The position numbers and the translations under genes are program-made. This document shows positions 6,485-50,738 of a stretch of 64,000 nt of DNA, piece by piece. Under the pieces are notes generated by a model that saw only the letters and a list, made by a program, of their open reading frames with translations, was not told the DNA's origin and made no database searches. Numbering within the stretch: the first letter of the stretch is position 1; every line of letters starts with the position of its first letter. Source of the DNA: Panorpa germanica (taxonomy: Eukaryota > Arthropoda > Insecta > Mecoptera > Panorpidae); contig OY783216.1 in the NCBI GenBank assembly GCA_963678705.1, forward strand, positions 14,958,596-15,022,595, in the 5' to 3' direction.

Positions 6485-7122
6485 GTTTAGTATTTTTATT
6501 ATTTTTTATATGTGTAAAAACTACTAGTCCCAAAAGTGTATGAGTGTATAGATGAATACTACATAAAATATTTTTTGTCTCCATTCATGCAAAACTATAG
6601 TTAACCACAATTAATGACCGCAAACTAGAAGTTGTGCAAATAGTTCCTTTTACCATTTTAGTTTGTTGGAGTATCTCATGTAAATATAATAACAGAGCGC
6701 AAGAGGGATAGAGGGGTCACCGTCTACATTCAAAGCAACTAAAAATTAATTTTGCAGTTAGATAAAAAGAGAATAAAGATTAGTCAAGATCATTAATTCC
6801 AGTTATTGTAGATCAAGGTCATAACTAGACGGGGTATTTTATCAAAGTAACTAAGTTAAATATACGCGATAGGGGATTTAAGGGAACTAGTCCAGAATAG
6901 CTAAGGGTTGGGCGATAAAGTTAACGAGAGGAAGAGAGAATAGATTGAAATCCATTTCGGGAATGAGCAGGTCTTTTCGTAGGATTGTACGAAAATAACG
7001 GAAAGAAAATAAATATAAAAAAAGAGATATTTAGAGGCAGTAGCAAAATTTAGACAAAATTTTTCTTTGTAACAGGGTACGCAAATAATTATATAAAAAC
7101 GCGGAAAATAAACGGAGTTAAG
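6485..7122 (+). other. gypsy copy A leader / 5' untranslated region
   Basis: Non-coding, and homologous to 13473-13934 upstream of copy B up to about 6950. Copy A then keeps about 170 bp, including the ATG, that copy B lacks. No clear tRNA primer site can be placed because the LTR boundary is missing. Confidence 0.55.
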
Positions 7123-8326
7123 ATGCAATCAGTGGAAAAGGAAACCATAGAGGGAAGAAGGGAAATAAAAACTTTTACTAAGAAAGGGGATATTAACCAA
7201 TTTTTACAAAATATTAAACGGGTGGGGGCCCATTTTAACTGGTCTCCGAAGACTAAACTAACAGTTTTGCTTGCTTAAGTATCACAAGCAGTATTTTTCT
7301 ACATTTGAACGAACCCCAGTACCATAGATAGTACTGATTATGCCAAAATCTGTCAAGCATTATGTAACCGATACGATAGACAAGGCCCACCTAAAGTGTG
7401 GCAGGCCAAGCGAGATTTTGACAATTGCAAACAAAAGAATGGTGAATCCGCTTTTGAGTTTGAGTTTGAGTTGAGTTTGCGCAACGACTTAGAGAGACAG
7501 GGTTGAAAACGATACCTGCAGATGCTTCCGGCAGTCTAGATGCGAACAAAGACGCAATGATAGAGAGCTGCTTATAAGAAAAGTTCAGGGATGGAATGTT
7601 CCCACGTTACTCTAAATATTTGTGGATAGCTAACCCAAAGTAGTAAAAGAGGCTATTGAGCTCGCAGAACGTATGGAAGCCGCGGAAAATATACCACAGC
7701 GACAGGAAGTTATCAAAGCTCTAACAGACGAGCATCCGGTTATGAACAACCGCACGCCGCAGGGTTACCCAAACACGAGACTCACACCGGATCAAGGCCC
7801 CTCCGCACCTAGATACAATATTGGATGGAACAATTCTAATAACAATAGGCCGATCTACAATCGACAGAACTATGCTAGAAACATAACTTGTTACTTCTGC
7901 GAGAACCCGGGACACATAGAACGTGATTGCCGATTATTTATAAAGATGAAGACACAAAGACCACCGGAGGAAACTAACCGCCAATATAACAGGGCCGCAC
8001 AGAGACAAAATACCAACTGGAATCCCACGCAAGAGACAAGGGTAGGCAACCCAATAAGCAATAGCAATAGAGGTAATTATTTTATTAGAGGGCCATATAA
8101 TCAAACCATACGACAACCAGCGTTACCGCGAAAAGCTAATGTAACGGAGGTATGGCAGAGTCCCGACTACATTCAAACAAACGACGCAGAGATGGAGATG
8201 ATAGAAAGAGAGAGACTAGATAGGTTTATCACAGAAAGAGAACTGGTTGTTGGAGAACTGCAGCTAGAAGGTGCAACCGTTGGACACCTTGAGAATCATT
8301 TAAACTATCCGACAGATCGTGCGTAA
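7123..8326 (+). pseudogene. gag of gypsy copy A (broken)
   Basis: Gag is the structural polyprotein of the particle. The chosen start is the ATG at 7123, after which the frame matches copy B's gag (QFLQN, VGAHFNW, YAKICQALC, KVWQ). In-frame stops occur at 7276-7278 and near 7305. A short GAGTTT expansion at 7456-7482 shifts the frame. The frame resumes and stays open from 7673 to 8326. The nucleocapsid knuckle CYFCENPGHIERDC (CX2CX4HX4C) lies at 7889-7930 and is intact. The gag stop is TAA at 8324-8326, downstream of a slippery heptamer. Confidence 0.85.
8299..8305 (+). promoter_or_regulatory. -1 programmed frameshift heptamer T_TTA_AAC (copy A)
   Basis: TTTAAAC lies with TTA and AAC exactly in the gag zero frame (codons 8300-8302 and 8303-8305). 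A -1 slip continues at 8305 in the frame that encodes KEGHGLKI and then the protease. This is the canonical X_XXY_YYZ pattern. A possible stimulatory stem pairs GAAGG near 8329 with CCTTC near 8358. Copy B has the same heptamer in place. Confidence 0.75.
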
Positions 8327-8660
8327 AAGAAGGCCACGGTCTAAAAATTCAGCAAGTCCTTCGTGATACCAACTTATACCCTTCCAGGTACGAAAATAAA
8401 CAGTAGACACTATTTATACGAATACAGGGCAGAGATTGCGAGTGCCTAATAGACTCAGGGGCAGGGGTCAGTCTGATTAGGAGTGAATTTGTACAGACGC
8501 ATGAAATAGTAGATTCCGACATAATTCTTAAAGACGCACAAGGTGCGTCCATGTCGACGTTAGGTAAATCAAAACTTGATCTAAATATATTCGGAGAAAA
8601 GGGAAGTTTCGAGTTTTATATTTGCGACACTATAGGTTGGCCATGCATATTGGGGTGGTA
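8305..8660 (+). pseudogene. aspartic protease of gypsy copy A pol
   Basis: The pol frame opens at the slippery site. After one in-frame TAG near 8402 comes LIDSGAGVSLI, the retropepsin active-site motif with catalytic Asp at 8452-8454. A flap region and the second conserved block (ILGWYFLIKF, corresponding to the usual hLG..fL) follow. Open frame 8551-8850 carries the C-terminal half. The protease would mature Gag-Pol. Stops make this copy non-functional. Confidence 0.8.
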
Positions 8661-9106
8661 CTTTCTGATAAAGTTTAATATAATTATTAATTTTGGAAGA
8701 GGGATTTTCCACCAAAAAAAATTGTTCGACCTAAACTGTAGTCGGACATTACATTATCCTATAGGTAAGCTAGATATAGGGCAATTAGTAACGCAACAAA
8801 TCCACAATATTTTTAATAAAGCAAAAAGAGGAGTAGGGTTTATTGTATAAAAGGTGTCAGTACCTAGACACAAGTATACAGGTGCGCCACTGGTCGACAA
8901 AACCGAATCCAAACCAAACTTGGAAATATATATAGAAAAACCACAAAATACCAAAACCGCACTAACCAAATTAGGCGAGGCCAGTATCGCAGACGCAGTA
9001 GAGAACCCGAATGGGTTGCTCAAGCTAAAGCCAGAGTCATACGAGGGATTTATGAAGTGAAAACTCGCGGGTTTTCCCAAAATGGATAAAATGCTTCCAA
9101 ATAAAC

Positions 9107-9507
9107 GAAATGAAGAGCGAAGTCATTAACTTGTCGAAGAAGTATACCATCGCCTACGGAGTAGGAGAATTATTCGCCAAAAATAAATTCGGCGATAGGT
9201 ATGACGGTTTAATACACAAAAAGAGCACCATAAATTAATTAGCAAAGTTATCAATCAATAAGACGAATGATAAGTATATATATTGTATAGGGTCTAGGGC
9301 GCAAGCACCCGGAAAAATAACTTATCGCGAAATATACGATATGTTGGACGATATGAAAGAGCATATTATCGAAAACCGATAGGACGATATTTAGCACTCC
9401 CACGCATTGGAAACGGGTCATGCAGGTTAAAGGATGATGCAATTCGTAGAATGATAGAGTATGTTTTCGACAAGGTCAACGTCAAGATCTGCATATACGA
9501 TAGCAGG
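9107..9507 (+). pseudogene. macro domain embedded in gypsy copy A pol (broken)
   Basis: Between protease and RT, translation gives KKYTIAYGVGELFAKNKFG, then YIYC, SRAQAPGKITYREIYDML and, after a +2 frameshift near 9380, YLALPRIGNGSCRL followed by a helix and VNVKICIYD. Order and spacing match macro domains of the TARG1/OARD1 type: glycine-rich ADP-ribose loop, LF..KFG, YIY strand, PTY helix, MPRIGCGLD-like loop, final IxVY strand. The equivalents of the TARG1 catalytic Lys and Asp appear to be Arg and Cys, so binding rather than hydrolysis is likelier. An in-frame TAA at 9236-9238 is shared with copy B. Family assignment is by eye. Confidence 0.7.
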
Positions 9508-9690
9508 ACCGAAATGCCTTAAGTAGAGAAAGCACTAAACATCGTCGAAAATGACCGTACCACACCAACAATACAAGTTACTAGCCTGAGAGGCACTATG
9601 GATCACAAAGTTAAGGATGACGAGAAAACAAAAATAAAATTAAACGCATCGGTCTAAGATTCGACTAAGTGGGCAAATTTACAAAAAAAA

Positions 9691-11060
9691 ATGGTTGAAA
9701 GAATACACAATAGTAAAACAGAGAGAACTGAAGTAGGATACTACAAAGACAGGAGAGAAACAGAGAAGAAAAATTACCGCTCATACATACGACTAAAATA
9801 CGCTGCGGAAATACCTGCAAGAAGTAGTGTTAACGTATGGGCAACACAAAAATTAATTACAGATGGAGACATTATAATCGAGACGGATATCACGCACTTC
9901 AATAATATATTAGTAGCTAGAAGTTTAAATACGGTTCGCAATATTGATCTTATATTACAAATCACAAATGTATCCAGTAAAACCATAAATTTAAATAAAA
10001 ATACGTTATTGGCACGCGCTGAAGCACATACTGACAGCTACACAGCTATTGAAAGAGACCCAACTCAGTACCTGCTGAGTAAAAGAGACACCGACCGACG
10101 AGTATCAAGTGTTAGCAGCCAACCCATAAACGAGATATGTTCGATCTCACTACCGGAAGTTAATACATCAGCATTGTCAAAACAGGAGCAAGCTGTTCTA
10201 ACAGAAATAATAAGGCAATGTAAGGAGCCGGGCAGAATAAATGAACCACAAATATCCCTTAGTAAATACATCATAAACAAAATAGACGTATTACATTTGG
10301 ATAGGGATGACAAGTTAAAAGTCGAACAAATGATAATTGAGTATAGTGACATATTTGCTGATAAAATCAAACCGTTATCGACCACAACATTAGTCGAACA
10401 TAAAATAATTGTGGACGATGAAACACCCAATTGTAAACCCCCATATCGTGTGCCATACGCACAGTTAGAATTTTTGAAAACCGAATTAGACCAAATGCTA
10501 GCTGAAGATATTATTGAACCAAGTCAATCACCTTGGGGGTTCCAGTAGTACTAGTAGAAAAGAAAAGTCAGGATAACACGAAACTATATTGCATTTGTAT
10601 AGACTACCAACCCTTAAATAAAATTAAAAAAAGAACTAATTTCCACTTCCTATTTTAACGGACACACTTGACCAGTTGGGAAGTTCAAACTGGTATACAA
10701 CATTAGATTTGTTTAGCGGATATTTCCGGTGGGAATGGCAGAGGAAATGGCAGTATACCGCGTTTAACACACCAAATTGCAGATATCAATTTAAGTAAAT
10801 GCCAATGGGGCTAGCTTCGTCGTCATACAGGTTCCAAAGATTAATGAATCTGGCGTTATCCGGACTGACAGGGATATTGTGTTTAGTATACCTAGACGAC
10901 ATCATTATATTTAGTAGAGGGGACGTTGATGTCCATATTGCACACATAAAGCAAGTATTTGACAGACTACGAAAGGCGAATCTATCTTTGAAAGCTTCGA
11001 AATGCAAAATTGCACACCCGGAGGTACAATATCTATTGGTAATAGAACGTTAAGAACATT
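9691..11060 (+). pseudogene. pre-RT linker and reverse transcriptase, gypsy copy A
   Basis: Open frame 9691-10548 holds the linker that normally precedes gypsy RT (ARSSVNVWATQ, ILVARSLNT, RNIDLILQITN) and ends in the RT entry motif DIIEPSQSPWGF. A frameshift near 10548 breaks the fingers. LDLFSGYF (motif A) and MPMGLASS (motif B, 10799) follow, then the catalytic motif VYLDDIIIF with YLDD intact at 10889-10900. Stops near 10600-10680 and an indel near 11040 kill the frame. The enzyme would copy element RNA to cDNA in the particle. Confidence 0.85.
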
Positions 11061-11090
11061 AAGGCAAATCCAGATAAAATAGAGGCAGTA

Positions 11091-11888
11091 GTGAAATTCC
11101 CACAACCAAAAAATATCAAAAAAGTTGAAGGGTTCTTAGGCTTAACAGAATTTTATAGACGATTAATTAAAAATAATTCTACAATCGCAAAACCGTTAAC
11201 AGCACTGACCCATAAGGACGAACCATTTATATGGGGGGCGGAACTGATAAGAGAACCAATTTTGAAGTATCCCGATTTTAGTAGAGAATTTGTGTTAACG
11301 GTAGACGCGTCCGGGGTCGCAGTTAGGGCCGTATTAGGAAAAGAATATAAGAAAATTCGACACCCCATCGCGTACGCTAGAAGACAGTTGATACAAGCGG
11401 AACGGAACTACAGTGTAACAGAGCAAGAGTGTTTAGCAGTCATATGGGCTATCCAGAAATTCAGACAATACTTATATGGGAAAAAAATTACGATATACAC
11501 GGATCACAGGGCGTTAGTGTGGCTTATGAATATAAAAGATATGCACAAATGTAGGCTGGCCAGATGGAGTTTGACGTTAGCTGATTATGACTTCGAAATA
11601 ATTCATAAGCCCGGAGCTCAAAATCAAAATGCTGACGCTTTATCAAGGGTCCTAATTAATAACGTAACCAATAAAATGGCGGAAGAGGAAGAGCCTATAT
11701 GGGATTTTTCATATATCCGTACTGAACAAAGAAAAGACCCAAATATTCAATCGCTGATAGATAAAGTCAATGATAACGAAACCAGAGAATATTTACTAGA
11801 TGCAAGGGGAGTGTTATATGAAACAGCCGGGAAAAATAGACACGAACGGATTGTAGCACCGAGGTCGATAATACTTAAAATATTATGA
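11091..11888 (+). pseudogene. RNase H domain and connection, gypsy copy A
   Basis: This 265-residue open frame has gypsy RNase H landmarks in order: TVDAS (first Asp, 11304-11306), TEQECLAVIWA (Glu) and IYTDHRALVWL (Asp), ending HKPGAQNQNADALSR. Relative to copy B it lacks about 36 bp around 11235 (the GFQTLKNEL stretch) and has VRAVLG for VGAVLG. Locally the frame is unbroken, but it is isolated from RT by a shift upstream. Confidence 0.85.
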
Positions 11889-13273
11889 ACCTACCACGAC
11901 TTACCTATCTCCGGCCATTGCGGCAAAGATAGAACAAAAGACAGAATAAATAGAGCGTTTGTATGGGAAAAGAAATCGAAAAATATTGCGAGGAGTGTGT
12001 GTCGTGTCAACAAAAGAAGACAAACCCGCATTTGCGAAAAGAGCCCCTACAGCGCATTCAGGTATGGTCCGTACCCGGACAGATGACTCACATAGATATA
12101 GTAGGACCTTTGCCTCAGGGATCCCGAGGCTCACGGTACATACCAGGATGCGTTTACACGGTATTTAACAGCGGTACCAATAATAGACCATTCTACAGAA
12201 ACAGTCGCACGCGCGTTCGTCGAAAATATAATTTGTGTACAGGGGATACCGCAAAGAATGCTCTCCGACAGGGGGAATAATTTCATGTCGGAAGTTTTCA
12301 AAAAGGTGTGCAAAAGGCTAGGGATTAAAAAATTAGGCACAACAGCTTATATGCCTAATTGCAACGGGCTAGTGAAGAGAAGCAATAGGACCATGAAAAC
12401 ATATTTATCGCACTACATAGAGAAAGATACCGCGGATTGGAAAGACTACCTACCACTAGCTGTATTCGCCTATAATACGTCGGTACACTCGGCGAATAAA
12501 GAAACACCTTTCTTTTTAAACTGTGGCATGGACGCGATATTACCATTGGAAGAAATCACCAGGCCCAGTAAGTTGTGTTACAACTTAGATACAAATTATG
12601 CAGAAGAAGTTTTGCGTAGACTAAAAATAGCTTACAAATTATGTAAGGAACTAACGGAGATCGCCAGGGAAAAACAGGAGAAGCAGTACATCAAAAAAAC
12701 AAAGCCCATTATTATCAAAATGGGTAATGTGGTATTGTAAAAAGAATATAATAATATTATAATAAGAATATATTGTTAATATCCGGCCAAACAAGGAAGT
12801 TGAGTAAACCCTGGGCTGGTCCGTACAGAGTGATGGAAATGATCACTAAAGTATCAGCTATAATCAAAGAGATATATGGAACTAAGGTACAGACCGTACA
12901 TGTAGATCGGCTAAAGCCATTTAAAAGAGACTATAGTAGAATGCAGGGAAAGGAAAATACCAATCTAGAAAAAAGCGAAACGGAAGAGATACCGAGTGCA
13001 TATGGGGCTTACGGAAATATGAATAGCCCGATTCGCAGTACCAAAGAGATCAGCCACGAGAGTATGTTACAGACAGGCTCAGACAGTGACACAGAGTCCA
13101 GCGAAGCAGACAGCGAATCCGAAAAATCGGACAGAACGGATGAGGAGAACGGATGAGGAGAACGAGTCGGTAATACCACAGGTCGGGTCCGCGAATGGAA
13201 GCTCAGAGGAGTGTAGACATAGCTTTAAAACCAGGAGTAAAGGCAAAATGCCCGACGAGCCATGGATAGGATA
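11889..13273 (+). pseudogene. integrase of gypsy copy A
   Basis: The zinc domain (LPISGH, then CEECVSCQQKK) is followed by the catalytic core with THIDIVGPLP (first Asp) and SDRGNNF (second Asp). At the third catalytic position the expected GLVER-N-R reads GLVKRSNR: the Glu codon is Lys (12375-12377). Copy B has the same change. An AT-rich insertion near 12745-12775 precedes the GPY/F module (WAGPYRVMEM, VDRLKPF). An acidic Ser/Glu-rich tail runs to about 13273. Frameshifts near 11890 and 12150 break the frame. Confidence 0.85.
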
Positions 13274-13472
13274 AAGCACGTATATTTAAACCATCAAATT
13301 TATAATATTAGCATTAAAAACATAAAACAGATATTAGGAAAGTTGTCATACACGAGTTATCAAACTAAATTTTTTATTATTGATCACAATTAATATATGT
13401 ATATGTTGTAATAGAAGGAAAACGAGCGGCAAGCCCAAGCAAAATCTGAAACAATAAAGACGCACTTCGCAC
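13274..13472 (+). repeat. LTR-like segment between gypsy copies A and B
   Basis: About 200 bp homologous to 20416-20603 after copy B, including AATAAA at 13453-13458. In copy A it directly follows the end of pol, because about 480 bp present after copy B (19931-20415) is deleted here. It passes straight into copy B's leader, as expected if two elements share one LTR or were tandemly duplicated. LTR ends are not proven. Confidence 0.5.
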
Positions 13473-13934
13473 GTTTAGTATTTTTATTATTGGTATATGT
13501 GTAAAAACTACAAGTCCCAAAAGTGTATGAGTGTATAGATGAATACTACATAAAATATTTTTTGTCTCCATTCAAGCAAAACTATAGTTAACCACAATTA
13601 ATAACCGCAATCTGGAAGTTGTACGAATAGTTCCTTTTACCATTTTAGTTTGTTAGGGTATCTCATGTAAATATAATAACAGAGCGCAAAAGGGGTAAAG
13701 GGGTCACCGTCTACATTCAGTGCAACTAAAAATTAATTTTGCAGTTAGATAAAAATAAAATAAAGATTAGTCAAGATCATTAATTCAAGTTATTGTAGAT
13801 CAAGGTCATAACTAGACGAGGTATTTTATTAAAGTAACTAAGTTAAATATACGCGATAGGGGATTTAAGGGAACTAGGCCAGAATAGCTAAGGGTTGGGC
13901 GATCAAGTTAACGAGAGAAAGAGAGAATCAATCA
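13473..13934 (+). other. gypsy copy B leader
   Basis: Homologous to 6485-6950 of copy A. Copy B then has a deletion of about 170 bp relative to A that removes the end of the leader and the gag ATG, joining GAGAGAATCA to the third gag codon region. Confidence 0.55.
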
Positions 13935-15074
13935 TTGGGAAAGGAAACCATAGAGGGAAGAAGGGTAATAAAAACTTCTACTGAGAAAGGGGATATTAAC
14001 CAATTTTTACAAAATTATAAACGAGTGGGGGCCCATTTTAACTGGTCTCTGGAGACTAAACTAACAGTTTTGCTAGCTAAAGTATCACAAGCAGTATTTT
14101 ACTACATTGAAACGAACCCCAGTACCAGAGATAGTAATGATTACGCCAAAATCTGTCAAGCATTATGTGACCGATAGGATAGACAACGCCCAGCTAAAGT
14201 GTGGCAAGAAATGCGAGATTTTGACAATTGCAAACAAAAGAATGGTGAATCCGCTTTTGAGTATGCGCAACGGCTTATAGAGACAGGGTGGAAAAAGATA
14301 CCTGTAGATGCTTCCGGCAGTCTAGATGCAAACAAAGTCGCAATGATAGAAAGCTGCTTACTAGAAAAGTTCAGGGGTGGAATGTTTCCACGTTACTCTA
14401 AATATTTGTGGATAGCTAACCCAAAGTCGTAAGAAGAAGCTATTGAGCTCGCAGAACGTATGGAAGCCGCGGAAAATTTACCACAGCGACAGCGAGCTAT
14501 CGATGCTATAACAGACGAGATTCCGGTTATGAACAACCGCACGCCGCAGGGTTACCAAAACACGAGACTCACACCGGATCAAGGCCCCTCCGCACCTAGA
14601 TACAATAACGGATGAAACAATTCTAAAAACAATTGACCGATCTATAATCGACAGAACATTGCTAGAAACATAACTTGTTACTTCTGCGAGAACCCGGGAC
14701 ACATACAACGTGATTGCCGATTATTTATAAAGATGAAGACACAAAGACCACCGGGGGGAAATAACCGCCAATATGACAGGCCCGCACAGAGACAAAATAC
14801 CAAATAGAATCCAACGCAGGAGACAAGGGTAGGCAACCCAATAAGCAATAGCAATAGAGGTAATTATTTTATTAGAGGGCCATATAATCAAACCATACGA
14901 CAACCAGCGTTACCGCAAAAAGCTAATGTAACGGAGGTATGGCAGAGTCCCGACAACATTCTAACAAACGACGCAGATATGGAGATGTTAAATAGAGAGA
15001 GACTAGATAGGTTTATCGCAGAAAGAGAACACCTTGACACCCTTGTTGGACACCTTGAGAATCATTTAAACTAA
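13935..15074 (+). pseudogene. gag of gypsy copy B (start codon lost)
   Basis: Homologous to copy A gag but without an ATG because of the leader deletion. Capsid-like sequence is open at 13935-14177, interrupted by TAG, and open again at 14199-14432 (FEYAQRLIETGWKKI, EKFRGGMFPRYSKYLWIANP). The CCHC knuckle lies at 14676-14717 with HIQRDC in place of HIERDC. A stop precedes the knuckle, and the zero frame ends at TAA directly after the slippery heptamer (15072-15074). Confidence 0.8.
15065..15071 (+). promoter_or_regulatory. -1 frameshift heptamer TTTAAAC (copy B)
   Basis: Identical heptamer at the homologous place to 8299-8305. Here a substitution makes the next zero-frame codon TAA, so only the -1 path continues into pol. 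Confidence 0.65.
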
Positions 15075-15843
15075 CCGACAGATCGTGCGTAAAAGAAGGC
15101 CACGGTCTAAAAATTCAGCAAGTCCTTCATGATACCAACTTATATCCTTCCAGGTACGAAAATAAACAGTGGACACTATTTATACGAATACAGGGCAGAG
15201 ATTGCGAGTGCCTATTAGACTCAGGGACAGGGGTCAGTCTGATTAGGAGTGAATTTGTACAGACGCATGAAATAGTAGATTCCGACAAAATTCTTAAAGA
15301 CGCACAAGGTAAAACCATGTCGACGTTAGGTAAATCAAATCTTGATCTAAATATATTCGGGGAAAAGGGAAGTTTCGAGTTTTATATTTGCGACACTATA
15401 CCATGCACATTGGGGTTGAACTTTCTGAAAAAGTTTAATATAATTAATAATTTTAGAAGAGGGTGGATATTCCACCGAGAAAATTTGTTCGACCTAAACT
15501 GTAGTCGGACATTACATTATCCTAGAGGTGAGCTAGACATAGGGCAATTAGTAACGCAAAAAATCCACAATATTTTTAATATAGCAAAAAGAGGAGTAGG
15601 GTTTATTGTATTAAAGATGTCAGTACCTAGACACAAGTATACAGGTGCGCCACCGGTCGACAAAGCCGAATCCAAACCAAATTTGGAAATATATATAGAA
15701 AAACCACAATATACTGAAACCACACTAACCAAGTTAGGCGAGGCCAGTATCGCAGAAGCAGTAGAGAACTCGAATGCGTTGCTTAAGCTAAAGCCAGAGT
15801 CAAACGAAGGATATATGAATTGGAAACTCGCGGGTTTTCCCAA
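15075..15843 (+). pseudogene. protease region of gypsy copy B pol
   Basis: LLDSGTGVSLI holds the active-site triplet with Asp at 15218-15220 and Thr after Gly, the commoner retropepsin form. Open frame 15317-15892 continues through PCTLGLNFLKKF to a lysine-rich linker, including KYTGAPPV and EASIAEAVENS, whose function I do not recognise. A frameshift around 15850 separates it from the macro domain. Confidence 0.8.
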
Positions 15844-15869
15844 AATGGAAAAATGCTGCCAAAAAAAAC

Positions 15870-16265
15870 GAAATGAGGAGCGAAGTCATTAAGTTGTCGA
15901 AGAAGTATACCATCGCCTACGGAGTAGGAGAATTATTCGCCAATAATAAATTCGGCAAAAGGTATGACGGTTTAATACACAAAAAGAGCACCAAAAATTA
16001 ATTAGCAAAGTTATCAATCAATAAGACGAATGATAAGTATATATATTGTATAATGTCTAGGGCGCAAGCACCCGGAAAAATAACTTATCGCAAAATATAC
16101 GATATGTTGGACGATATGAAAGAGCATATTATCGAAAATAAAATAAAGTATTTAGCACTCTCACGCATTGAAAACGGGTCATGCAGGTTAAAGGATGAAG
16201 CAATTCGTAGAATGATAGAGTATGTTTTCGACAAGGTCAACGTCAAGATCTGCATATACGATACC
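15870..16265 (+). pseudogene. macro domain embedded in gypsy copy B pol
   Basis: One continuous frame, broken by a single TAA at 15999-16001, encodes the whole domain: KKYTIAYGVGELFANNKFG, YIYCIMSRAQAPGKITY, an amphipathic helix (MLDDMKEHIIEN), YLALSRIENGSCRL, RRMIEYVFDKV and VNVKICIYD. It is the better preserved copy. Family resemblance is to TARG1/OARD1-like macro domains that bind or remove ADP-ribose. The catalytic Asp loop reads GSCRL, so hydrolase activity is doubtful. The domain lies between protease and RT in the same orientation and frame as the downstream linker, so it is part of Gag-Pol rather than a separate gene. Confidence 0.72.
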
Positions 16266-17960
16266 AGGACCGAAATGCCGGAAGTAGAGAAAGCACTAAA
16301 CATCGTCAAAGAAGACCGTACCACACCAACAATACAAGTCAGTAGCCTAAAGTGCACTATGGATCACAAAGTTAAGGATGACGAGAAAACAAAAATAAAA
16401 TCAAACGCATCGATCTGGGATTCGACTAAGTGGGCAAATTTACAAAAAAAATTGGTGGAAAGAATACACAATAGTGAAACAGGGAGAACTAAAGTAGGAT
16501 ACTACAAAAACAGGGGAGAAACAGAGAAGATAAATGACGGCGGTATGGGCAACACAGAAATTAATTACAGATGGAGACATTATAATCGAGACGAATATAA
16601 CGCACTTAAATAATATATTAGTAGCTAGAAGTTTAAATACGGTTCGTAATAATGATCTTATATTACGGATCACGAATGTATCCAGTAAAACCATAAATTT
16701 AAATATAAATACGTTATTGGCACGCGCAGAAGCACACACTGACAGCTACACAGCTATTGAAAGAGACCTAACTCAGCACCAGCTGAGTAAAAGAGACACC
16801 AACCGACGAGTATCAAGTGTTAGCAACCAACCCATAAACGAGATATGTTCGTTCTCACTATCGGAAGTTAATACATCAGCATTGTCAAAACAGGAACAAG
16901 CTGTTCTAACAGAAATAATAAGGCAATGTAAGGAGCCGGGCAGAATAAATGAACCACAAATATCCCTTAGTAAAGACATCATAAACTAAATAGACGTATC
17001 ACATTTGGATAGGGATGACAAGTGGAAAGTCGAACAAATGATAATTGAGTATAGTGACATATTTGCTGATAAAACCAAACCGTTATCGGCCACAACATTA
17101 GTCGAACATAAAATAATTGTGCAAGATGAAACACCCGTTTGTAAACACCCATATCGTGTGCTATACGCACAGCAGGAATTTTTAAAAACCGAATTAGACC
17201 AAATGCTAGCTCAAGATATTATTGAACCAAGTCAATAACCTTGGGGGTTCCCAGTAGTATTAGTAGAAAAGAAAAGTCAGGATAACACAAAACAATACCG
17301 CATTTGTATAGACTACCGAGCCTTAAAAAAAATAACAAAAAATGACTATTTCCCACTTCCTATTTTAACAGACAGACTTAACCAGTTGGGAAGTTCAAAC
17401 TGGTATACAACTTTAGATTTGTTTAGCGGATATTTCCAGGTGGGAATGGCAGAGAAAAGCCGACAGTATACCGCGTTTAACACATAAAACTGCAGATATC
17501 AATTTAAGAAAATGCCAATGGGGCTAGCTTCATCGTCATACACGTTCCAAAGATTAATGAATCTAACGTTATCCGGACTGACAGGGATATCGTGTTTAGT
17601 ATACCTGGACATCATTATATTTAGTAAAGGGGAAGTAGATGTCCATACTGCACACATAAAGCAGGTATTTGACAGACTACGAAAGGCGAATCTATCATTA
17701 AAAGCTTTAAAATACAAAATTGCACACCCGGAGGTACAATATCTGGGCCATATTATAAGTGAAGCAGGCATTAAGGCAAATCCAGATAAAATAAAGGCAG
17801 TAGTCAAATTCCCACAACCAAAAAATGTCAAAGAAGTTAGAGTGTTCTTAGGCTTAACAGGATTTTATAGACGATTAATTAAAAATTATTCTACAATCGC
17901 AAAACCGTTAGCAGCACTGACCCATAAGGACAAACCATTTATATAGGGGGCGGAACAAGA
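16266..17960 (+). pseudogene. linker and reverse transcriptase, gypsy copy B
   Basis: Linker as in copy A (16534-16989), RT entry block near 17100-17235, then motif B MPMGLASSSY at 17512. The catalytic motif reads VYLDIIIF at 17599-17622: a 3-base deletion removed one Asp of YLDD, so this RT cannot be active. Thumb and connection continue to the stop near 17946. Several other stops are visible. Confidence 0.85.
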
Positions 17961-18006
17961 ACGAGGATTCCAGACGCTTAAAAATGAACTGATAAGAGAA
18001 CTAATT

Positions 18007-18370
18007 TTGAAGCTTCCCGATTTTAGTAGAGAATTTGTGTTAACGGTGGACGCGCTTGGGGTCGCAGTTGGGGCCGTACTAGGTAAAGAATATAAGAAAA
18101 TTCAACACCCCATCGCGTACGCTAGTAGACAGTTGATACAAGCGGAACGAAACTACAGTGTAACAGAGCAAGAGTGTTTAGCAGTCATATGGGCTATCCA
18201 GAAATTTAGACAATACTTATATAGGAAAAAATTTACGATATACACGTATCTCAGGGCGTTAGTGTGGCTCATGAATATAAAAGATCCACACAAAAGTAGG
18301 CTGGCGAGATGGAGTTTAACGTTAGCGGATTACGACTTCGAAATAATTCATAAACCCGGAGCTTAAAATC
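18007..18370 (+). pseudogene. RNase H domain, gypsy copy B
   Basis: TVDALGVAVGAVLG and TEQECLAVIWA are present, but the third catalytic block reads IYTYLRALVWL where copy A has IYTDHRALVWL, so the catalytic Asp is Tyr. The frame ends at a TAA in the HKPGA motif (18364-18366). Confidence 0.85.
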
Positions 18371-18399
18371 AAAATGCTGACGCTTTATCAAGGGTCCTA

Positions 18400-19930
18400 A
18401 TTAATAACGTAACTAATAAAAGAGCGGAAGAGGAAGAGCCTATATGGGATTTTTCATATATCCGTACTGAACAAAGAAGAGACCCGAATATTCCATCGCT
18501 GATAGATAAAGTCAATAATAACGAAACCAGAGAATATTTATTGGATGCAAGGGGAGTGTTATATGAAACAGCCGGGAAAAATAGACACGAACAGATTGTA
18601 GCACCGAGGTCGATGATACCTAAAATATTATTAACCTATCACGACTTACCTATCTCCGGCCATGGCGGCGGAGATAGAACAAAAGACAGAATAAATAGAG
18701 CGTTTGTATGGAAAGGTATGGGAAAAGAAATAAAAAAATATTGCGAGGAGTGTGTGTCGTGTCAACAAAAGAAGACAAACCCGCATTTGCGAAAAGGGCC
18801 ACTACAGCGCTTTTAGGTATGGTCCGAACCCAGACAGATTACTCACATAGATATAGTTGGACATTTGCCTCAGGGATCCCGAGGCTCACAATACATACTA
18901 ACATACCAGGATGCGTTTACACGGTTTTTAACAGCGGTACTATTAATAGACCAGTCTGCAGAAACAGTCGCACGCGCGTTCGTCGAAAATATATATTGTG
19001 TACAGGGGATACCGCAAAGAATACTCTCCGACAGGGGGACTAATTTCATGTCGAAAGTTTTCAAAAAGGTGTGCGAGAGGCTAGGGATTAAAAAATTCGG
19101 CACAACAGCTTATAGGCCTAATTGCAACGGGCTAGTGAAGAGAAGCAATAGGACCATGAAAACATATTTATCGCACTACATAGAGAAAGATACCGCGGAG
19201 TGGGAAGACCACCTACCACTGGCTATATTTGCCTATAATACACTCGACGATTAAAGAAACACCTTTCTTTTTAAACTATGGCATGGACGCGATATTACCA
19301 TTGGAAGAAATCACAAGGCCCAGTAAACCGTGTTACAACTTAGATTCAAATTATGCAGAACAAGTTCAAAATAGCTTTCAAATTGTGTAAGGAACTAACA
19401 GAGATCGCCATGGAAAAGCAGGAGAAGCAGTTCAACAAGAAAACAAAGCCCATTATTATCAAAATAGGTGATGTGTTATTGTTAAAAGAAGTTGCGTTAA
19501 AATCCGGCCAAACAAGGAAGTTAAGTAAACCCTGGGTTGGTCCGTACAGAGTGATGGAAATGATCAATAAAGTGACAGCTTTAATCAAAGAGATATATGG
19601 AACTAAGGTACAGACCGTACATGTAGATCGGCTAAAGCTATTTAAGGGAGACTATAGTAGAATGCAGGGGAAGGAAAACACCAATCCAGGAGAAAGCAAA
19701 ACGGAAGAGATACCGAGTGCATATGGAGCTTACGGAAATATAAGTAGCCCGATTCACGGTACAAAAGAGATCAGCCACGAGAGTATGTTACAGACAGTGA
19801 CACAGAGTCCAGCGAAGCAGACAGCGAATCCGAAAAATCGGACAGAACGAGTCGGTAATACCACAGGTCGGGTCCGCGAATTGGAGTTTAGAGGAGTAAA
19901 GGCAAAATGCCCGACCAGCCATGGATAGGA
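18400..19930 (+). pseudogene. integrase of gypsy copy B
   Basis: Zinc domain intact in sequence (LPISGHGGGDRTKD, CEECVSCQQKK). The core has THIDIVGHLPQ and SDRGTNF. The third catalytic residue is Lys in GLVKRSNR (19138-19140), as in copy A. A small deletion near 19250 shifts the frame. The GPY/F module (WVGPYRVMEMINKV, VDRLKLF) and acidic tail end at the TAG at 19926-19928. Confidence 0.85.
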
Positions 19931-20401
19931 TAAAGCAATAGTTAAAAAAGGAAAGTCAAAACAAAAAAAAAAGAGAAGAAAAGTAGGGGTTATAAAAAAG
20001 GAAAAAAAATAGAAAGACAATCACTCAAATCTGTATAGAAATAGGTTACGAAAAATAGTAGGGTAAAAAAATTGAAAAACAACAATATTGAAGGGCTTAC
20101 AATCGAACAAGCCCATTGATAATAAAACGCATTGAGTCATATCACTTTAGGGATGTGAGTGGTTACACTTATAACAATAAAAAGGATAGGTATCTATCGG
20201 AAGTTAAAGGCAAAATCAAAGAGCGGAGTGCAGCCAATCCGCGAGGAACAGCACCCGACGACTACACCACCCGACGGCTACGCAGTTCGAGGTTACCATT
20301 GGTACCACGCGAGGAAGTGGTGGGACAGAAACAATTAATGAGCGGACATACCAGCAGCAGATTTTAGAGGAACAAATAATAGAAGATAACTAAGGAGAGG
20401 G
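19929..20401 (+). other. 3' region of gypsy copy B with an 83-codon ORF
   Basis: This stretch is missing from copy A. It starts with A-rich, purine-rich DNA and contains an ORF at 20116-20367 (MIIKRIESYHF... ending GHTSSRF), rich in Arg, Lys and Ser and without a recognised domain. It could be chance or a small accessory ORF in the env position. A purine tract AAGGAGAGGG at 20392-20401 is a plausible polypurine tract just before the LTR-like segment. Confidence 0.4.
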
Positions 20402-20603
20402 TAGCAACACGGTAGAACGTATATTTAAACCATCATATTTATAATATTAGCATTAAGAACATAAAACAAACATTATGAAAGTTGTCATACACGAGTTATC
20501 AAACTAATTTTTTTATTATTGATCACAATTAATATATGTATATATTGTAATAGAAGGAAAACGAGCGGCAAGCCCAAGCAGAATCTAAAACAATAAAGAC
20601 GCA
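20402..20603 (+). repeat. LTR-like segment after gypsy copy B
   Basis: Homologous to 13274-13472 from about 20416 on, with AATAAA at 20592-20597. It follows a candidate polypurine tract. Similarity to the A/B junction stops after GACGCACTT at 20603, so the element ends or is truncated there. Confidence 0.5.
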
Positions 20604-21599
20604 CTTTACCCCCACCCCCTTCCTCTACCATAGAATCCGCGCTATCAAATGGAGAGCCCACAATCAAATGGAGAGCCACTATCAAATGGATGCCCTAATA
20701 CCAAAATCAACAACAACATCAGACATCAGGGGACACCATCAGAATCCAACAACAAGGCATTACCTTGGCGAACGTTATGACGTCAAAAAAGAAAAGTAAT
20801 TATATATATACACATGGGTATCACTATGACACATAACGTAAATGTAATAGTGATTAACTTGGTGTTAATATCATTGAGGAACATTGTGATTTGTAAATTT
20901 GATTGTCAGTGTTTTGAAATAATTAAATGAAGTATAATTAATCAAAAAGCTTTATGTATACCTATCCTTATTAATATTATATCACATTTGGGGGCTTAAC
21001 ATAGATTTTATTTACCCACATATATAAGACATTTTAGGAATTGTTAATTTTTAATCAAATTTATGTACTACCTCTGAAATCGAAGACTTTGAATTTAGTA
21101 ATTTACATACACAATATTGCACACACTACAATGCAAGTAGCTATAACCAATGTTAGTTCATCTGACCAGAATGCAGTTGTAATATCTATGGTCAGTGTCA
21201 CCAACTAAAGAAATATGATTTCATTTCATCTTTCTCCTTAACGAAGAAAATTTTCACCAAAAATTTCTCTTATCTACACTTATCTAATTAAAACTAAATT
21301 TAAATTGTACACTGTAAACAATACTAAATAAAATTTAGTTTGTCCTATTTCTATTTTTTATGTAGGTATTGGTATAAGTTCTGTGATATGAAAGAGATTT
21401 GACTCTGTTTTTCTATGACCTGTATTAATTTTATGTATTGAATTTGATATCTTTTCAATACATTAAAGTAGACCAACGTTCAGCTGAGCTAAATATTTCA
21501 ATTTAGTTTGTTTCCATTCTCTACCATACCCCTGTATCAAAATAAAATTGAGTTTTAATTTTATCAAATATTTGTTTATTGTAGTTATATGATTAAATT
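20604..21599. other. non-coding DNA with LTR/primer-site-like phrase
   Basis: No ORF of note. It starts with a C-rich run and a short tandem repeat (listed separately). At about 20985-21000 the phrase ATCACATTTGGGGGCT resembles an LTR end followed by a tRNA-Pro type primer site (TGGGGGCT), preceded by a TATATATATACA box near 20800; this may be a 5' LTR of another element. A stretch at 21117-21190 recurs at 28303-28360. Confidence 0.35.
20643..20692. repeat. 17-19-bp tandem repeat, three copies
   Basis: The phrase ATCAAATGGAGAGCC occurs three times in a row (the last as ATCAAATGGATGCC), with short variable spacers. Confidence 0.7.
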
Positions 21600-30424: not shown

Positions 30425-31755
30425 TATATTAACCTGCGGAGTTCCACAGGGATCGGTATAAGGGCATCTACTATGGAACATTCTGTACAACGAGGTACTA
30501 AAAATAAAACTATCAGAAGGCGCTTCTGTTATTGGATTCGCGGACGACGCAGCACTTATTATTGATGCTAAATTTAAAGAAACACTAAAGGCTCATGCTA
30601 ATACGGCGCTGAACCGGATTGAACAGATGCTAGAGAGAAAGCAATTACAGCACGCTCCGGAAAGAACAGAGATAATCGTACTTTATGTTGGAAGAAAACT
30701 GACGGAAATACCCTTGGAGGTAGGCACAATGAAAATTAAATCCAAAGAACACTTAAAGTACCTGGGGCTCTATATTGGAAGGAATGCAGACATAAAGCAA
30801 CATGTTATACAAGCGGCTAAGAAATCCGAGGAAAAACTTATGACGTTAAGTAGACTAATGCCAAATCTGAAGGGACCGAAGGCAAGTGAAAGAAGAGTGT
30901 TAGCGTTGGTGGTTCACTCAATAATGCTGTATGCTGCACCGATATGGGAGGAAGCTGTAAAACTCAAAAAAAATAGAAATATGTTAATGAGTGTGCAACG
31001 TAGAACGGCAATACGAGTGAGTAGTACTTATCGCACAATCTCGGCAAAAGCTGTCCAGGTGATAAGCGGAATAGTATTTTTTCACTACTTTTGGATGAGT
31101 GGAAAAAGGTCTATCTGGAAAAAAAAAGAAAAACACTAGGAAGAAAGAAAAGAAATTTAAAAAAAAGGCAATGCGAATGGGAGAAAGATACCGGTAAAGC
31201 GGTGTGGACTAAAAGGCTAATACGAAAGATCAGTACTTGGAAAAATCGAAAATACGGGGAAATTGATTATTTTATAACACAATTTTTCTGAGGACATAGG
31301 TGCTTTGGGAGTTACTTAAAGAGATTCAAAAAGAGAGAGTCCGACAAATGTTGGTACTGTAAACATGTCGATACACCAGAACATACGTTGTTCTATTGTG
31401 GCCGATGAGCGATGGATAGAGACGAAGTACAGACGATAACGGTAACCACACTGATCTAGATATTATTGTTAATATTATGGTATAAAAGGAAAAATATTGG
31501 AGTGCGGTTCGAGTCTTCGTCATAAAAATTCTAAAAACAAAAGAAGTGAACGTCAACACAGCATCATAACCGGAACCCGAGTATCAAGATCCAGTCTGAA
31601 GGAATGCTATTGCTGTACCAGATTGTGGTCTAGATGAAGAGAGGGAGAGCTTCAGTTGGTAGGCGCTCTTCCAGCGAGGGTGTATCCATCACGTCCCGAC
31701 GGGTTGTCAGGTGACAATCTTATAGAAGATTTCTCCTCCTCACCACAAAAAAAAA
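30425..31755 (+). mobile_element. R1-like LINE, 5'-truncated copy (i)
   Basis: It begins inside RT at CGVPQGSV, followed by GFADDAALI (second Asp retained, T to A after it). A long open frame at 30627-31139 gives RT thumb sequence (KLTEIPLEVGTMKIK, YLGLYIGRNAD), then a Lys-rich region and the C-terminal zinc motif CWYCKHVDTPEHTLFYC (31350-31400). The 3' UTR ends in a short poly(A) at about 31745-31755. It is about 90% similar by eye to copies (ii)/(iii) and is the only one with the 3' end preserved. TAA replaces a Leu codon in the VLG motif. Confidence 0.85.
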
Positions 31756-36749: not shown

Positions 36750-36949
36750 GAAAACATCGATATATAAATTAAGTTAATTTTTTAATAAAAATTCTATTCA
36801 CATCACTAAACCTAATCGTATAATAAATTTACTAAAATATTTAATCAACAATAATTATATAAACATAAAGAAAAAAATAAAATATATAAATAAATCGAAC
36901 AACAAGATATCAGATATAAAAATCAATTAAATTAATTAAAACAGTTAAA

Positions 36950-38056
36950 ATGATAAATTTTATTCAATGGAACTGTAGAGGAGTCAGATATATTAAAGAG
37001 GAACTACAACATATGTTACAGAAGCATAACATACATATATGCATACTATCAGAAACGTTTTTAACAAAAAATCACAATTTCAACATCAAAGGCTATTTTA
37101 TTGAAAGAGAAGATAGGATACAGTTAACAGATCATAACCCCCATGGAGTTGAAGCAATTTTAATACATAAATCCGTAAAATATAAAAGATTTATAATAAA
37201 TAACCCATTTAACTCAGTAGAAATTGCAGCAATAACAATAAAACTTAACAGAATTGAAGAAATATGTATACTATCCGTTTATGCTAAACCAAATCACAAA
37301 ATTAATAACGTAAATTGGTCTTTCATAAAAAATCAAGTAAATGTGCCCATAATTTTTGCTGGAGACTTTAACTCAACACATCAAGTGTGGGACCCTTTCA
37401 CCCTAGGACAAAATTACGAAGGTAGGGAGCTGCTTACATTTATTGAGAATGAAAATTTAGTAATATTAAATGATGATAATCCAACTAAAGTTAGAAACCC
37501 AAGGACAAGAGATAGTATTTTAGATTTAACAATAGTATCCCCTTCTATCGTTAAATACATACACTCTTGGCGGATACTAACAGATAATGTGGGAAGTGAT
37601 CATTACCCTATAATATATTGCTTTGTTGACAACAATGATGTTGAGAACAGAGAAAAAATCATGCGACGCAACTTTAAAAAAGCTGATTGGATAAAATACT
37701 CCAGCTATATAGACTTGAGATTAAATAATCTAAACACGTCCAGTGAAACTAATGTGGAATCTCTTTACGCTAGCTTGACTGAGATAGTCAATGAGGCCGA
37801 AGAGCTATCTATACCAACTACAGAAATATACAATCTGAGGCCCAATAAGATTAAACCTATATGGTGGAATACTGAATGTAACAAAATGATCGCTAAAAGA
37901 AGACTAGCTTTAACTAACTGTAACAGACATTTTACTATTGAAACATTTCTTGCATTTAAGAAGCAACAAGCGCAAACCAAAAGGTATTTCAGAGCTAGGA
38001 AAAAAACGGAGTGGCGGAAATTCTGTGATAATCTAAATTCCAATACTACCTCTTAA
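36950..38056 (+). pseudogene. ORF2 endonuclease domain of the I-like LINE
   Basis: The ATG at 36950 opens 368 residues with APE-type motifs in order: FIQWNCRGV, ILSETFL (Glu), FAGDFNSTHQVWD, DSILDLTIV and GSDHYPI. All expected catalytic positions are present. A stop at 38054-38056 separates it from RT, so ORF2 is broken here. The enzyme would nick target DNA to prime reverse transcription. Confidence 0.88.
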
Positions 38057-38132
38057 ACTATTTGGGAAAATATAAGAAAAATTAACAACAAAAAACTACA
38101 GCACCAAAAAATATTGTGATAATGACAATTGG

Positions 38133-39567
38133 TTGGATGATTTTATTAAAAACAAATTTCCTCAGAACAATGTTAATCTCTCTACTGACACTACAAACAT
38201 TCCAAATAGTAACATTCCAATTTTGGACAATCCTATACTCATAGAAGAACTTCACTACTCTCTAAATCATAACAAAAATACAAGCACCGGTTTCGACAGA
38301 TATAACTACAAAATGATACAATTATTACACAAATAGCTAAATCACTTGTAATACAAATCTTCAATAATATATTTAACACTCAAACTATACCCGACGATTG
38401 GAAAAATCATATTATTGTACCAATATTAAAACCGAATAAAGATCCAAACTCAGCAGAATCATACAGGCCTATCACTCTACTTTCATGCATTGGGAAAACA
38501 ATGGAATCCATTATCAAAAACAGATTAGAATGGTATCTGGAACATCATCAAAAAATGCCTGACCTTCAATTTGCCTACAGAAAAGGAAAAAGCACCCAAC
38601 ATAGCTTAAATATATTAAACTTGGACATACAGAAAGTATATAGTAACAATCATTACATGGTCGCAGCTTTTCTAGACATCAAATCCGCGTATGATAATGT
38701 AAATCTTATAAATCTAAAAAACAAAATGACAGATATTGGTATATCTACAAAAATTATAAAATGGATTTTAAATTATTACCAACTAAGAGAAGTTTTTATA
38801 AGACATAACAACAAATTATTAGGTCCTTACGTGAACTCTCAAGGAGTGCCGCAAGGCTCAATATTATCTCCTCTATTGTTCAATATATACACAAAAGATA
38901 TCATCAAACTGGCGGATAATTCTACGAAAATCCTACTATATGCCGATAATATAGTAATCTACAGCAAGGGCTATTCACTTAACATAGCGCAAAAAAGACT
39001 TCAAAAGAAAATCAAAATGCTAGAATCTACCTTAAGTAATTTAAATCTAGAGGTATCTACTAATAAAAGCAAACAAAATAATTTTTACCAGACACAACTT
39101 AGATCGAAGTCTAAGAATTATTATGAAAAATAAATGTTTATCTGTTACAAGTAACGTTAAATTCATGGGTGTTTGGTTTGATTCAAAAAGCACATGATGC
39201 AAAGAAATCAACTCAATTTTAGCAAAATGTCACAAAGGAATAAATGTAATGAGATGTCTAGCTGGAAGCAGCTGGGGAAGTCATCCTCTAACTCTACTCA
39301 GTATTTATAAAGCCATTGTCAGACCCCATTTTGACTACATTAGTTTGTACCGCAAATAATACAAGACTTAAAAAATTAAACACAGTACAAAACAAAGGAC
39401 TAAGAATAATAATAGGTGCAATGGGTTCTACTCCCATACAGATTCTTAACCTGGAAACAAATATGTCACCTTTAAAAATTCGAAGACAGATATTAAGTGA
39501 CAATTTCTTCATCAAAATAATCCATAGTAAGTACCAAAATATCATATCTAGAATAGAAGAACTTTAA
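38133..39567 (+). pseudogene. ORF2 reverse transcriptase of the I-like LINE, YADN mutant
   Basis: YRPITLLSCIGK, LQFAYRKGKSTQHSL, FLDIKSAYDNV (motif A Asp present) and GVPQGSILSPLLFNIY are recognisable. The catalytic motif reads LLYADNIVIY at 38936-38965: the second Asp of YADD is Asn (38948-38950). Thumb debris continues past a TAA (39131-39133) to 39567 (RLKKLNTVQNKGLRIIIGA). The Asn change should abolish activity. Confidence 0.88.
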
Positions 39568-39666
39568 AATGTATACTTTAAGCCATATTGGATAAACAAG
39601 AACCAACCTCTACTTTTAATAAGCTACAATCACTACAAAAATATACCTATAGAAAGTTTTGAGATC

Positions 39667-40668
39667 ATGCCCTACTTTAAATCTTCATATGAATTAAAAA
39701 CTATTAAAATAGATACCGAAATTAAATATTTCAACAAGAAAGACAACAACACTATTATATATCAACGGTATATGAATTTTATATGCACTGAAAACATAAA
39801 ATGGGACATATGGTATACAGATGGTTCCGTAAATTATAAATCTAAAAATGGAGGTGCTGGCTTATACAACTCTACAACAAACAAGCAATATAAGTTTAAG
39901 TTAAATAATATATTAAGTTCATTCAATGCTGAACTTATAGCTATATTGAAGACAATGAAGATAATTAAAAACACTAAAGAGTCTAACATATTAATAGTAA
40001 CAGATGCATATAGTGTATTAACAGCTATAAATAATAAAAACTTCAAAAACAATAATAATAATAAAATTTGTAAAATAAAAGCAATATATTGTAAACTTAA
40101 AAAGAGTGGTGTAAACATAAAATTTTTATGGGTACCAGGTCATTCTGGAATTTTAGGCAATGAAACTGCAGATAAGTTAGCAAAAGAAGCATGTACTGAC
40201 GGTAAATTAATAGATATAAAATCTTCCTTAAATGAAATGAAAATAATTATCAAGGAAAAGGCATATATAGTCTGGCAAATAATATACAAAGAGGCAAGTC
40301 AAACCACAGGCAAAACATTCTACCTTTTCAACAATAAAATTAAAGATAACATGTGGATCAATAAAAATGTATCTACAAAATTCATTTATACAATATGCCG
40401 ACTAAGATCAGGTCATTGTAAAGTCCCATCACATCTAGCAAAAATAAAAGTAATACAATCTTCTAATTGCATCTGTGGAGAGGAAGGTACTATAGACCAC
40501 ATGGTACTAGGATGTAAATTCAAAAAACAGGAAGTCGTCCACTTATGGAGTAATTTATGTAAACATACCATGATGCTAGTAAACGTATTAAATTTAATAT
40601 ATGATATAAATAGTGCCACTACAAAATGTGTGGTTGAGTTTTTAATTGACAATAAAATTGACATATAA
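39667..40668 (+). pseudogene. ORF2 RNase H and C-terminal zinc motif of the I-like LINE
   Basis: An open frame of 333 residues with IWYTDGS, SSFNAELIAI, IVTDAYSVL and VPGHSGILGNETADKLAK, the complete RNase H1-type acidic set. A tail CICGEEGTIDHMVLGC (CX1CX8HX4C) lies near 40465-40515, the usual C-terminal motif of this LINE group. The frame itself is intact; only its link to RT is lost. Confidence 0.88.
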
Positions 40669-42060: not shown

Positions 42061-42734
42061 GAAGAAAACCTTAGCTTTCATAGGAATATCTATTTTATTG
42101 TTATTTCAGCTAACTCTAGAATGACACAAATGAGCGAAGCAAGATATAGAATAAATAAAAAGGAATACCGATCTTTGTGGAAAATTTGGAAAAAGAAATA
42201 TACAAAATGTAGAAATACGAAATGTACAGAAATTAGATATAAATGAATGCATGAAGGCAATAAACCTAGCACTAAAAGCCACTTTTAATAAAAGAGCTGC
42301 AAGAGGAAATCGTTAACTTGTGTACTCGTGGAACGATAACATCGCTTAGTTAGAAAAGCAATGTCTGAGGTCAAGAAGATTGTTAACTCAAGGTAATAAG
42401 AGCAAAGAAGTCACAGAAGAAAGTAGAGAAAGATTCAGAAATGAATACAATGAAAAATTTAAACTCCTCAGAAACGCAATAATAGGAGCAAAACAAGATG
42501 TCTGGAGAAAAACCTGCCTAGAAGGTAACCAAGATATTTGGGACATGGAGTACAAAATTGTGTGTAAAGAGCTTAACATGATGTCTCGAATTAAATTAAG
42601 TAGCGATAAGCTAATAACAACTGTCAAGAAACTGTTTCCAACACGAGCAACAAACAAATAGCCATACATAGCTATAGAGGAAAGGTGTATACCCTATTTT
42701 ACTGAGGCAGAACAATAAGGGACAATAAGAATTA

Positions 42735-45400: not shown

Positions 45401-45516
45401 CAACAGAGGTTATTAAAACCTAGTACCGATAGGATATGGAAATAGGTTGGGTTTTTCCGAACCCAGAGGTAGCGCGACCGCCCATCATTTCTCCTTTGAC
45501 TCCCACTACTGCATAT

Positions 45517-50729: not shown

Positions 50730-50738
50730 CTAATTCAC

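Follow-up and report, generated by a model that had tools for sequence, protein, structure and literature searches.

RNA viruses are known to carry macrodomains that counteract host ADP-ribosylation, and captured cellular enzymes are known from retroviral polyproteins: dUTPase occurs at alternative positions in those of lentiviruses and betaretroviruses, one of which lies between RNaseH and the integrase. The human macrodomain protein TARG1 (also known as OARD1 or C6orf130) is 152 residues long. Fish epsilon-like endogenous retroviruses occasionally have open reading frames (ORFs) for macrodomains, according to the available part of a paper citing Basta et al. 2009 (PMC4977317). This was the only related statement found among the papers listed in searches of the open-licence PMC literature, a scope outside which subscription papers and Repbase lie; PMC8195603 and PMC11642819, also consulted, concern other subjects. 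Here, we analyzed a 64,000-nucleotide stretch of the genome of the insect Panorpa germanica (contig OY783216.1, positions 14,958,596 to 15,022,595; hereafter, the window), in which an initial annotation had placed a macro domain at 15870-16265, inside a Ty3/gypsy Gag-Pol and between its protease and reverse transcriptase (RT). Judged by sequence, the segment corresponds to a TARG1-like macrodomain, here in a broken copy, within the Pol of a multicopy Ty3/gypsy family, referred to as Fam1. Three Ty3/gypsy families with a macrodomain were found in this genome: Fam1, Fam2, and Fam3.

Identity of the macrodomain

The window contains two copies of the element, A and B (Table 1), both of which encode the segment in the pol orientation, as initially annotated. 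In a phmmer search against the PDB, the copy B piece 16002-16610 matched human TARG1/OARD1 (E=3.6e-10), as did the domain of an unbroken Fam1 member, L004:1387-1875 (E=8.5e-13; residues 47-160 of 163). The Fam2 and Fam3 domains matched TARG1 at E=1.4e-38 (residues 52-189 of the piece) and E=4e-41 (residues 5-139 of the piece), respectively, and TARG1 was the best match among solved structures for all three families. A predicted structure of 16002-16265 (pLDDT [predicted local distance difference test] of 82.5) resembles the C-terminal half of TARG1, the part to which the model is confined, and TARG1 entries took ranks 1-8 in the fold comparison (4j5s; template modeling [TM] score, 0.84; E=1.3e-05); because the underlying alignment held 32 OARD1-type proteins, the model leans to the OARD1 fold. 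The sequence matches and the predicted fold bear out the proposed macrodomain and its nearest solved relative.

The profile search proposed as a check on the domain did not support it. Pfam Macro (PF01661; gathering cutoff, 22 bits) gave no match in the window pieces scanned (E up to 1), and the L004 domain scored 17.4 bits (E=0.0043), below the cutoff, dropping to 14.0 bits in a frame of 903 amino acids (aa). Two protein-database searches with the Fam1 domain likewise returned nothing at E≤0.01, and these results weigh against the assignment. Four Fam3 pieces scored 16.8-20.0 bits, also under the cutoff; there was no Pfam Macro row for the Fam3 pieces L047 and L055 and none at E≤0.01 for the Fam2 locus L039 or for L043.

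Copy numbers and position of the domain in Pol

A DNA search of the 464-Mb genome gave 31 matches, and a protein search with the unbroken L004 domain gave 152, of which 150 were assigned to families by a hand count, sorted by identity and span. The copy numbers are lower bounds, since the best 150 of 512 candidates were scored. Fam1 accounts for at least 37 rows (49-100% identity to the L004 domain; certain rows cover different parts of a single place) and Fam2-like elements for at least 46 rows of near-full length plus 3 partial rows (26-32% identity; loci L039, L040, L045, and L046 were read). At least 64 rows remain, and the 36 that were read, in 35 loci, are all Fam3. Intact members had been suggested as a search target, and copies with open frames were found. 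In at least 11 Fam1 places, no stop interrupts the complete domain (one of these places has a gap of 14 residues inside it), and 3 of the 11 lie in a 1526-aa frame; 41 of the 46 near-full-length Fam2-like rows are stop-free in the domain, with 8 in frames of 1636-1638 aa, and a 1389-aa frame occurs in at least 18 rows.

The Ty3/gypsy Pol order of protease, RT, RNaseH, and integrase is present in L043, L041, L042, and L039. The open 1526-aa frame of L043 (Fam1) comprises protease (~40-132), macrodomain (235-397), RT (756-920), RNaseH (983-1112), and integrase (1203-1374), and the part of the frame considered in L039 (Fam2) has the same arrangement, with protease at 37-134, macrodomain at 226-376, RT at 732-895, RNaseH at 958-1087, and integrase from 1179. 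In both families, then, the domain occupies the interval between protease and RT, and the annotated order is seen in open copies. Beyond what had been annotated, the Fam3 domain lies between RNaseH and integrase: L041 has protease at 78-168, RT at 320-479, RNaseH at 547-675, the macrodomain at ~782-882 (placed by a Pfam match under the cutoff), and the integrase zinc domain at 1020-1077. The protease matches of L043 and L039 are below the Pfam cutoffs, and those of L041 and L042 include one above. Gag with a CCHC knuckle is encoded in a separate, overlapping frame (L043:43-1272 and L039:3971-5110); no match to the knuckle was found in the upstream frame of L041. By RT similarity, Fam1 and Fam2 form the nearer pair, scoring ~230 bits against one another and ~160 bits against Fam3.

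A short stretch with Tyr and Trp at like spacing precedes the macrodomain in L041, L039, and L043, though the position in Pol differs, and the phmmer match of the Fam2 piece reaches into it. This common stretch hints at one cassette that moved within Pol.

No OARD1 gene of the host itself was identified among the loci read. One candidate, the 147-aa frame of L047, is ruled out by its flanks, which are of Fam3 type and mark it as a Fam3 fragment. A scan of viral contigs found no relative of the Fam1 domain; with the Fam2 and Fam3 domains, it found one, L079, in a 110-kb viral contig (601 bases read).

Active site and first ligand loop

The first ligand loop, which is MGAGIA in TARG1, is recognizable in the alignments of Fam2 and Fam3 to TARG1. 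The TARG1 catalytic dyad is given as Lys84 and Asp125 in the portion of PMC9411070 available, and residue 125 is printed as Glu125 in that of PMC7050489; numbering here was counted on the aligned PDB chain. The equivalents of Lys84 and Asp125 are kept in 4/4 Fam2 and 33/33 Fam3 copies read (of 35 Fam3 loci, the partial pieces L048 and L050 were left out, and L052, which holds two copies, was counted once), together with the loop Gly wherever that position is present.

The window's family differs. Arg and Cys, the residues initially annotated at the two positions, are found in 10/10 open Fam1 copies, an eleventh open place (L010/L043) having been left out as a near-duplicate, and in the older Fam1 relatives L025, L026, and L037, both positions are Arg. 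On these alignments, dyad loss in Fam1 is old and common to its subfamilies. Moreover, the stretch from the SKY-type motif to KFG, which is the site of the first ligand loop in TARG1, is ~9 residues shorter in Fam1 than in Fam2, and the short form is common to the older relatives L032, L034, and L035. Because of this shortening, even ADP-ribose binding by the Fam1 domain appears doubtful. The initial annotation had favored a binder or decoy over a hydrolase; the shortened stretch speaks against this for Fam1, and since the two sister families keep the dyad, a hydrolase seems likelier than a decoy when the three families are taken together.

Selection on the domain and its origin

The ratio of nonsynonymous to synonymous substitution rates (dN/dS) of the Fam3 macrodomain was 0.237 (codon bootstrap, 0.136-0.369; 33 copies), and that of the Fam3 RT was 0.101 (0.055-0.213; 29 copies). 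For Fam2, the corresponding values were 0.221 (0.087-0.643) and 0.475 in the same 4 copies. Comparison of the Fam1 copy L009 with pieces of older subfamilies (residues 226-425, i.e., the domain and some flank; 15 nonindependent pieces from 8 loci) gave 0.15-0.38 per piece and 0.24 when pooled, a ratio pushed towards 1 by the decay of the older pieces themselves. The domain is thus under purifying selection in Fam3 and in Fam1 relative to the older subfamilies. Between Fam1 and Fam2, the domain diverges faster than the RT (dN of 0.702 versus 0.368); between Fam2 and Fam3, it does not (0.490 versus 0.534). The protease rows and the Fam1 RT row of that analysis combine families and were disregarded.

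A tree was built of Fam2, Fam3, and 41 proteins chosen out of 120 listed. Both families belong to a grouping of 17 rows (96/87) whose other members are proteins of flies, midges, mosquitoes, fleas, fireflies, and aphids, plus three from metagenomes; the sole crustacean row is placed outside it. This grouping with insect OARD1-type proteins agrees with the annotated acquisition of a host gene, and an insect-type OARD1 gene is the likely source of the domain. When Fam1 was included, its branch was very long (4.46), its placement was impossible, and the bootstrap was unsettled.

Two aphid OARD1-like proteins, P0068 and P0108, group weakly with Fam2 (80/68) and may be derived from retroelements. 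In the firefly Pyrocoelia, P0030 (11 members) has a TARG1-like macrodomain behind a stretch that weakly resembles the Fam3 integrase C terminus (E=0.001 against three sequences; Pfam Integrase_p58_C, E=0.55), possibly a third position in Pol in another insect.

Proposed function and alternative explanations

We consider it fairly probable that the macrodomain is a captured insect-type OARD1 domain that is a pseudo-enzyme in the window's family and an active ADP-ribosyl hydrolase in the two sister families, as their sequences predict. Pol would carry the domain into the particle alongside RT and integrase. There, the Fam2 and Fam3 domains would strip ADP-ribose placed by host PARP-type enzymes on element proteins or on the ends of RNA or complementary DNA (cDNA), and its removal would shield replication or evade silencing. 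In Fam1, hydrolysis was likely lost before the subfamilies split, and the domain would have been retained for another role in Pol, likely protein binding or structural.

A broader proposal, that Ty3/gypsy elements turned host TARG1 into a Pol-borne counter-defense at two sites in Pol, with a conserved pseudo-enzyme in one lineage, is tentative, and we hold it at somewhat below an even chance. As far as the accessible sections of a review go, RNA ADP-ribosylation is suggested to aid, possibly, the recognition of transposon-derived or viral RNA (PMC7050489). In favor of the preferred explanation, PARP-1-null Drosophila tend to upregulate mobile elements, a large number of which belong to the gypsy superfamily, although 3/8 significant elements went down, support for ten more is weak, and the authors leave room for an indirect effect in the text available (PMC7712786). 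The initial annotation had likewise suggested use against ADP-ribosylation-based silencing. The initial interpretation as a whole is partly upheld, in the macrodomain and its nearest solved relative, the order in open Pol frames, the many copies, the likely origin near a cellular OARD1-type gene, and Arg and Cys at the dyad positions; the binder or decoy, as stated, is not. If the counter-defense proposal is true, ADP-ribosylation is a defense against retrotransposons in insects.

The loss of the dyad in Fam1, in a domain region nonetheless under purifying selection relative to the older subfamilies, would also suit a structural Pol module, a spacer or folding scaffold whose role is unconnected with ADP-ribose in all three families. 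We regard this as unlikely: Lys, Asp, and the loop Gly, needless for a spacer, persist in those Fam2 and Fam3 copies that were read, and the domain is found at two different positions in Pol. Less likely still is that the Fam1 domain acts on ADP-ribose by a noncanonical mechanism. The same purifying selection is compatible with such activity, and a Streptomyces relative, SCO6735, hydrolyzes without the TARG1 dyad, according to the part of PMC9411070 available; the shortened first-ligand-loop stretch speaks against it, as does the Asp position, where the young family has Cys and the older L025, L026, and L037 have Arg. Clearance of ADP-ribose from the cDNA or RNA ends of the element for reverse transcription or integration, rather than from proteins, is possible but would be our lesser expectation; it is a version of the preferred explanation and compatible with it. 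TARG1 is described as acting on both protein esters and nucleic-acid phosphate ends, in what could be consulted of PMC7050489, and the Fam3 domain adjoins the integrase, but sequence cannot separate the two kinds of substrate. That a host OARD1 pseudogene or other insertion hit one copy by chance and then spread passively is extremely improbable. Both window copies are broken, with lesions in common, as passive spread would allow; the inclusion of the domain in open Pol frames (1526 aa in Fam1, up to 1638 aa in Fam2, and 1389 aa in Fam3), its presence in three families, and dN/dS values well under 1 rule out a chance match or one-copy insertion.

Several results weigh against the reading of a captured hydrolase with one pseudo-enzyme lineage. 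Among open Fam1 copies, dN/dS was 0.605 (0.315-1.489; 10 copies), no different from 1, and 0.603 when 11 places were taken, a ratio that is uninformative because the copies are too similar; the proposed comparison across copies therefore indicates purifying selection for Fam3 and for Fam1 against older subfamilies (0.24 each) and not within open Fam1. The Fam2 and Fam3 copies were hand-picked, mostly for long open frames, which favors low dN/dS and kept residues. The approximately unbiased test did not reject a tree in which Fam2 and Fam3 form a single clade (p-AU 0.591), so that a single capture with later movement of the domain within Pol and two captures are both possible. The modeled Fam1 sequence is the C-terminal half in the window only, with a fold biased by the alignment of OARD1-type proteins. 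Two Fam1 alignments place the missing residues differently, the one by phmmer to TARG1 having no such gap in this stretch, which makes the identity of the lost residues uncertain. Given the SCO6735 precedent, the absence of Lys and Asp is by itself no proof of inactivity. Finally, self-comparison of the window found no flanking direct repeat, i.e., no pair of long terminal repeats (LTRs), around either copy.

The captured-hydrolase reading bears on whether ADP-ribosylation restrains retrotransposons. Multicopy retroelements with a dyad-conserved domain, beside a sister family in which the dyad is lost yet the domain selected, would allow naturally occurring domains of active and inactive type to be tested side by side.

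Element copies and other features of the window

Copies A and B are arranged head to tail, and their matching pieces show 87-98% identity in the self-comparison of the 64-kb window. The macrodomain is open in neither. In copy B, its two pieces are in one frame, separated by a stop, and this frame is shifted relative to that of the protease. Copy A has a stop at the same place, followed by a second frame change to its C-terminal piece. Since two lesions are common to both (the frame change behind the protease and the first stop inside the domain), A and B likely descend from a single copy that was already broken.

Table 1. Features of element copies A and B in the window
Feature	Position	Strand	Basis
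Element copy A	6485-13467	+	Self-comparison with copy B
Gag with CCHC knuckle, copy A	7634-8326	+	zf-CCHC, E=5.1e-05
Macrodomain N-terminal piece, copy A	9056-9235	+	Open piece; in alignment as L028
Macrodomain middle piece, copy A	9239-9379	+	Open piece; in alignment as L028
Macrodomain C-terminal piece, copy A	9298-9519, other frame	+	Open piece; in alignment as L028
Pol linker and RT start, copy A	9658-10548	+	Likeness to L004 (RVT_1 from residue 756); no Pfam match
Element copy B	13473-20606	+	Self-comparison with copy A; head to tail, 5 bp between A and B
Pol protease frame, copy B (DSG aspartic protease)	15059-15889	+	RVP, E=0.02, under cutoff
Macrodomain N-terminal piece, copy B	15819-15998 (domain part from ~15870)	+	Open piece; aligns to domain of Fam1 copies (L024 piece)
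Macrodomain C-terminal piece, copy B	16002-16265, frame continues to 16610	+	TARG1 match of 16002-16610; fold model of 16002-16265

In other copies, the sequences of the 5′ end (from 13473) and the 3′ end (up to 13467) were found apart, several with identical boundaries; they adjoin only between A and B (15 matches; C41, C7, and C1 places). No terminal direct repeat was seen at these matches. As no end-sequence match lies beside the open C2 copies, those copies have other ends. Either the LTRs of window-type copies were overlooked or such copies truly lack them. In one region upstream of a Fam2 copy, an LTR pair was not clearly present among the best 40 of 368 candidates scored.

Elsewhere in the window, an 8.49-kb direct repeat has its two adjacent units at 42331-50822 and 50822-59312, with 99.94% identity between them; it is either a recent tandem duplication or an assembly artifact. 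Frames resembling two families of non-LTR retrotransposons (endonuclease-, RT-, and RNaseH-like, by eye) lie at 36920-40668 and at 30462-31139, 42893-43807, and 51384-52298. Positions 63097-64000 are occupied by a satellite array that repeats every 85 bp and, at a higher order, every 423 bp; short stretches related to it occur near 48354 and 56845.

Comparison with known systems

The closest known system is human TARG1, which the Panorpa domains resemble in sequence along the domain, in the Lys84 and Asp125 equivalents of Fam2 and Fam3, and in the predicted fold of the window piece. TARG1 is a free enzyme, whereas these macrodomains are embedded in a retroelement Pol, and Fam1 differs further in its absent dyad and shorter first-loop stretch. 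The bacterial DarG macrodomain, of the ALC1-like class, is matched weakly by Fam1 (NCBIfam, E=5.7e-4, 19.3 bits; cutoff, 250) and, as PDB 5m31, by Fam3 (E=2.1e-05), a similarity far below that to TARG1; DarG belongs to a toxin-antitoxin pair, as noted in the part of PMC7050489 available. The alphavirus macrodomains (Mayaro and Venezuelan equine encephalitis virus [VEEV]) share the macro fold and its residence in a replicating element, but their fold match to the window piece is weaker than that of TARG1 (E of ~0.02-0.05 versus 1e-5). The dUTPase of lentiviral and betaretroviral polyproteins is a different enzyme with a different substrate. Fish epsilon-like endogenous retroviruses, as far as they are described in the text available, are alike in bearing a macrodomain on a retroelement and are set apart, by description only, in that theirs are extra ORFs of vertebrate elements and not a TARG1-type domain within a Ty3/gypsy Pol. 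A macrodomain on a retroelement is thus already known from the fish retroviruses, and the TARG1-type domain inside a Ty3/gypsy Pol, as predicted here from sequence, would be a new variant.
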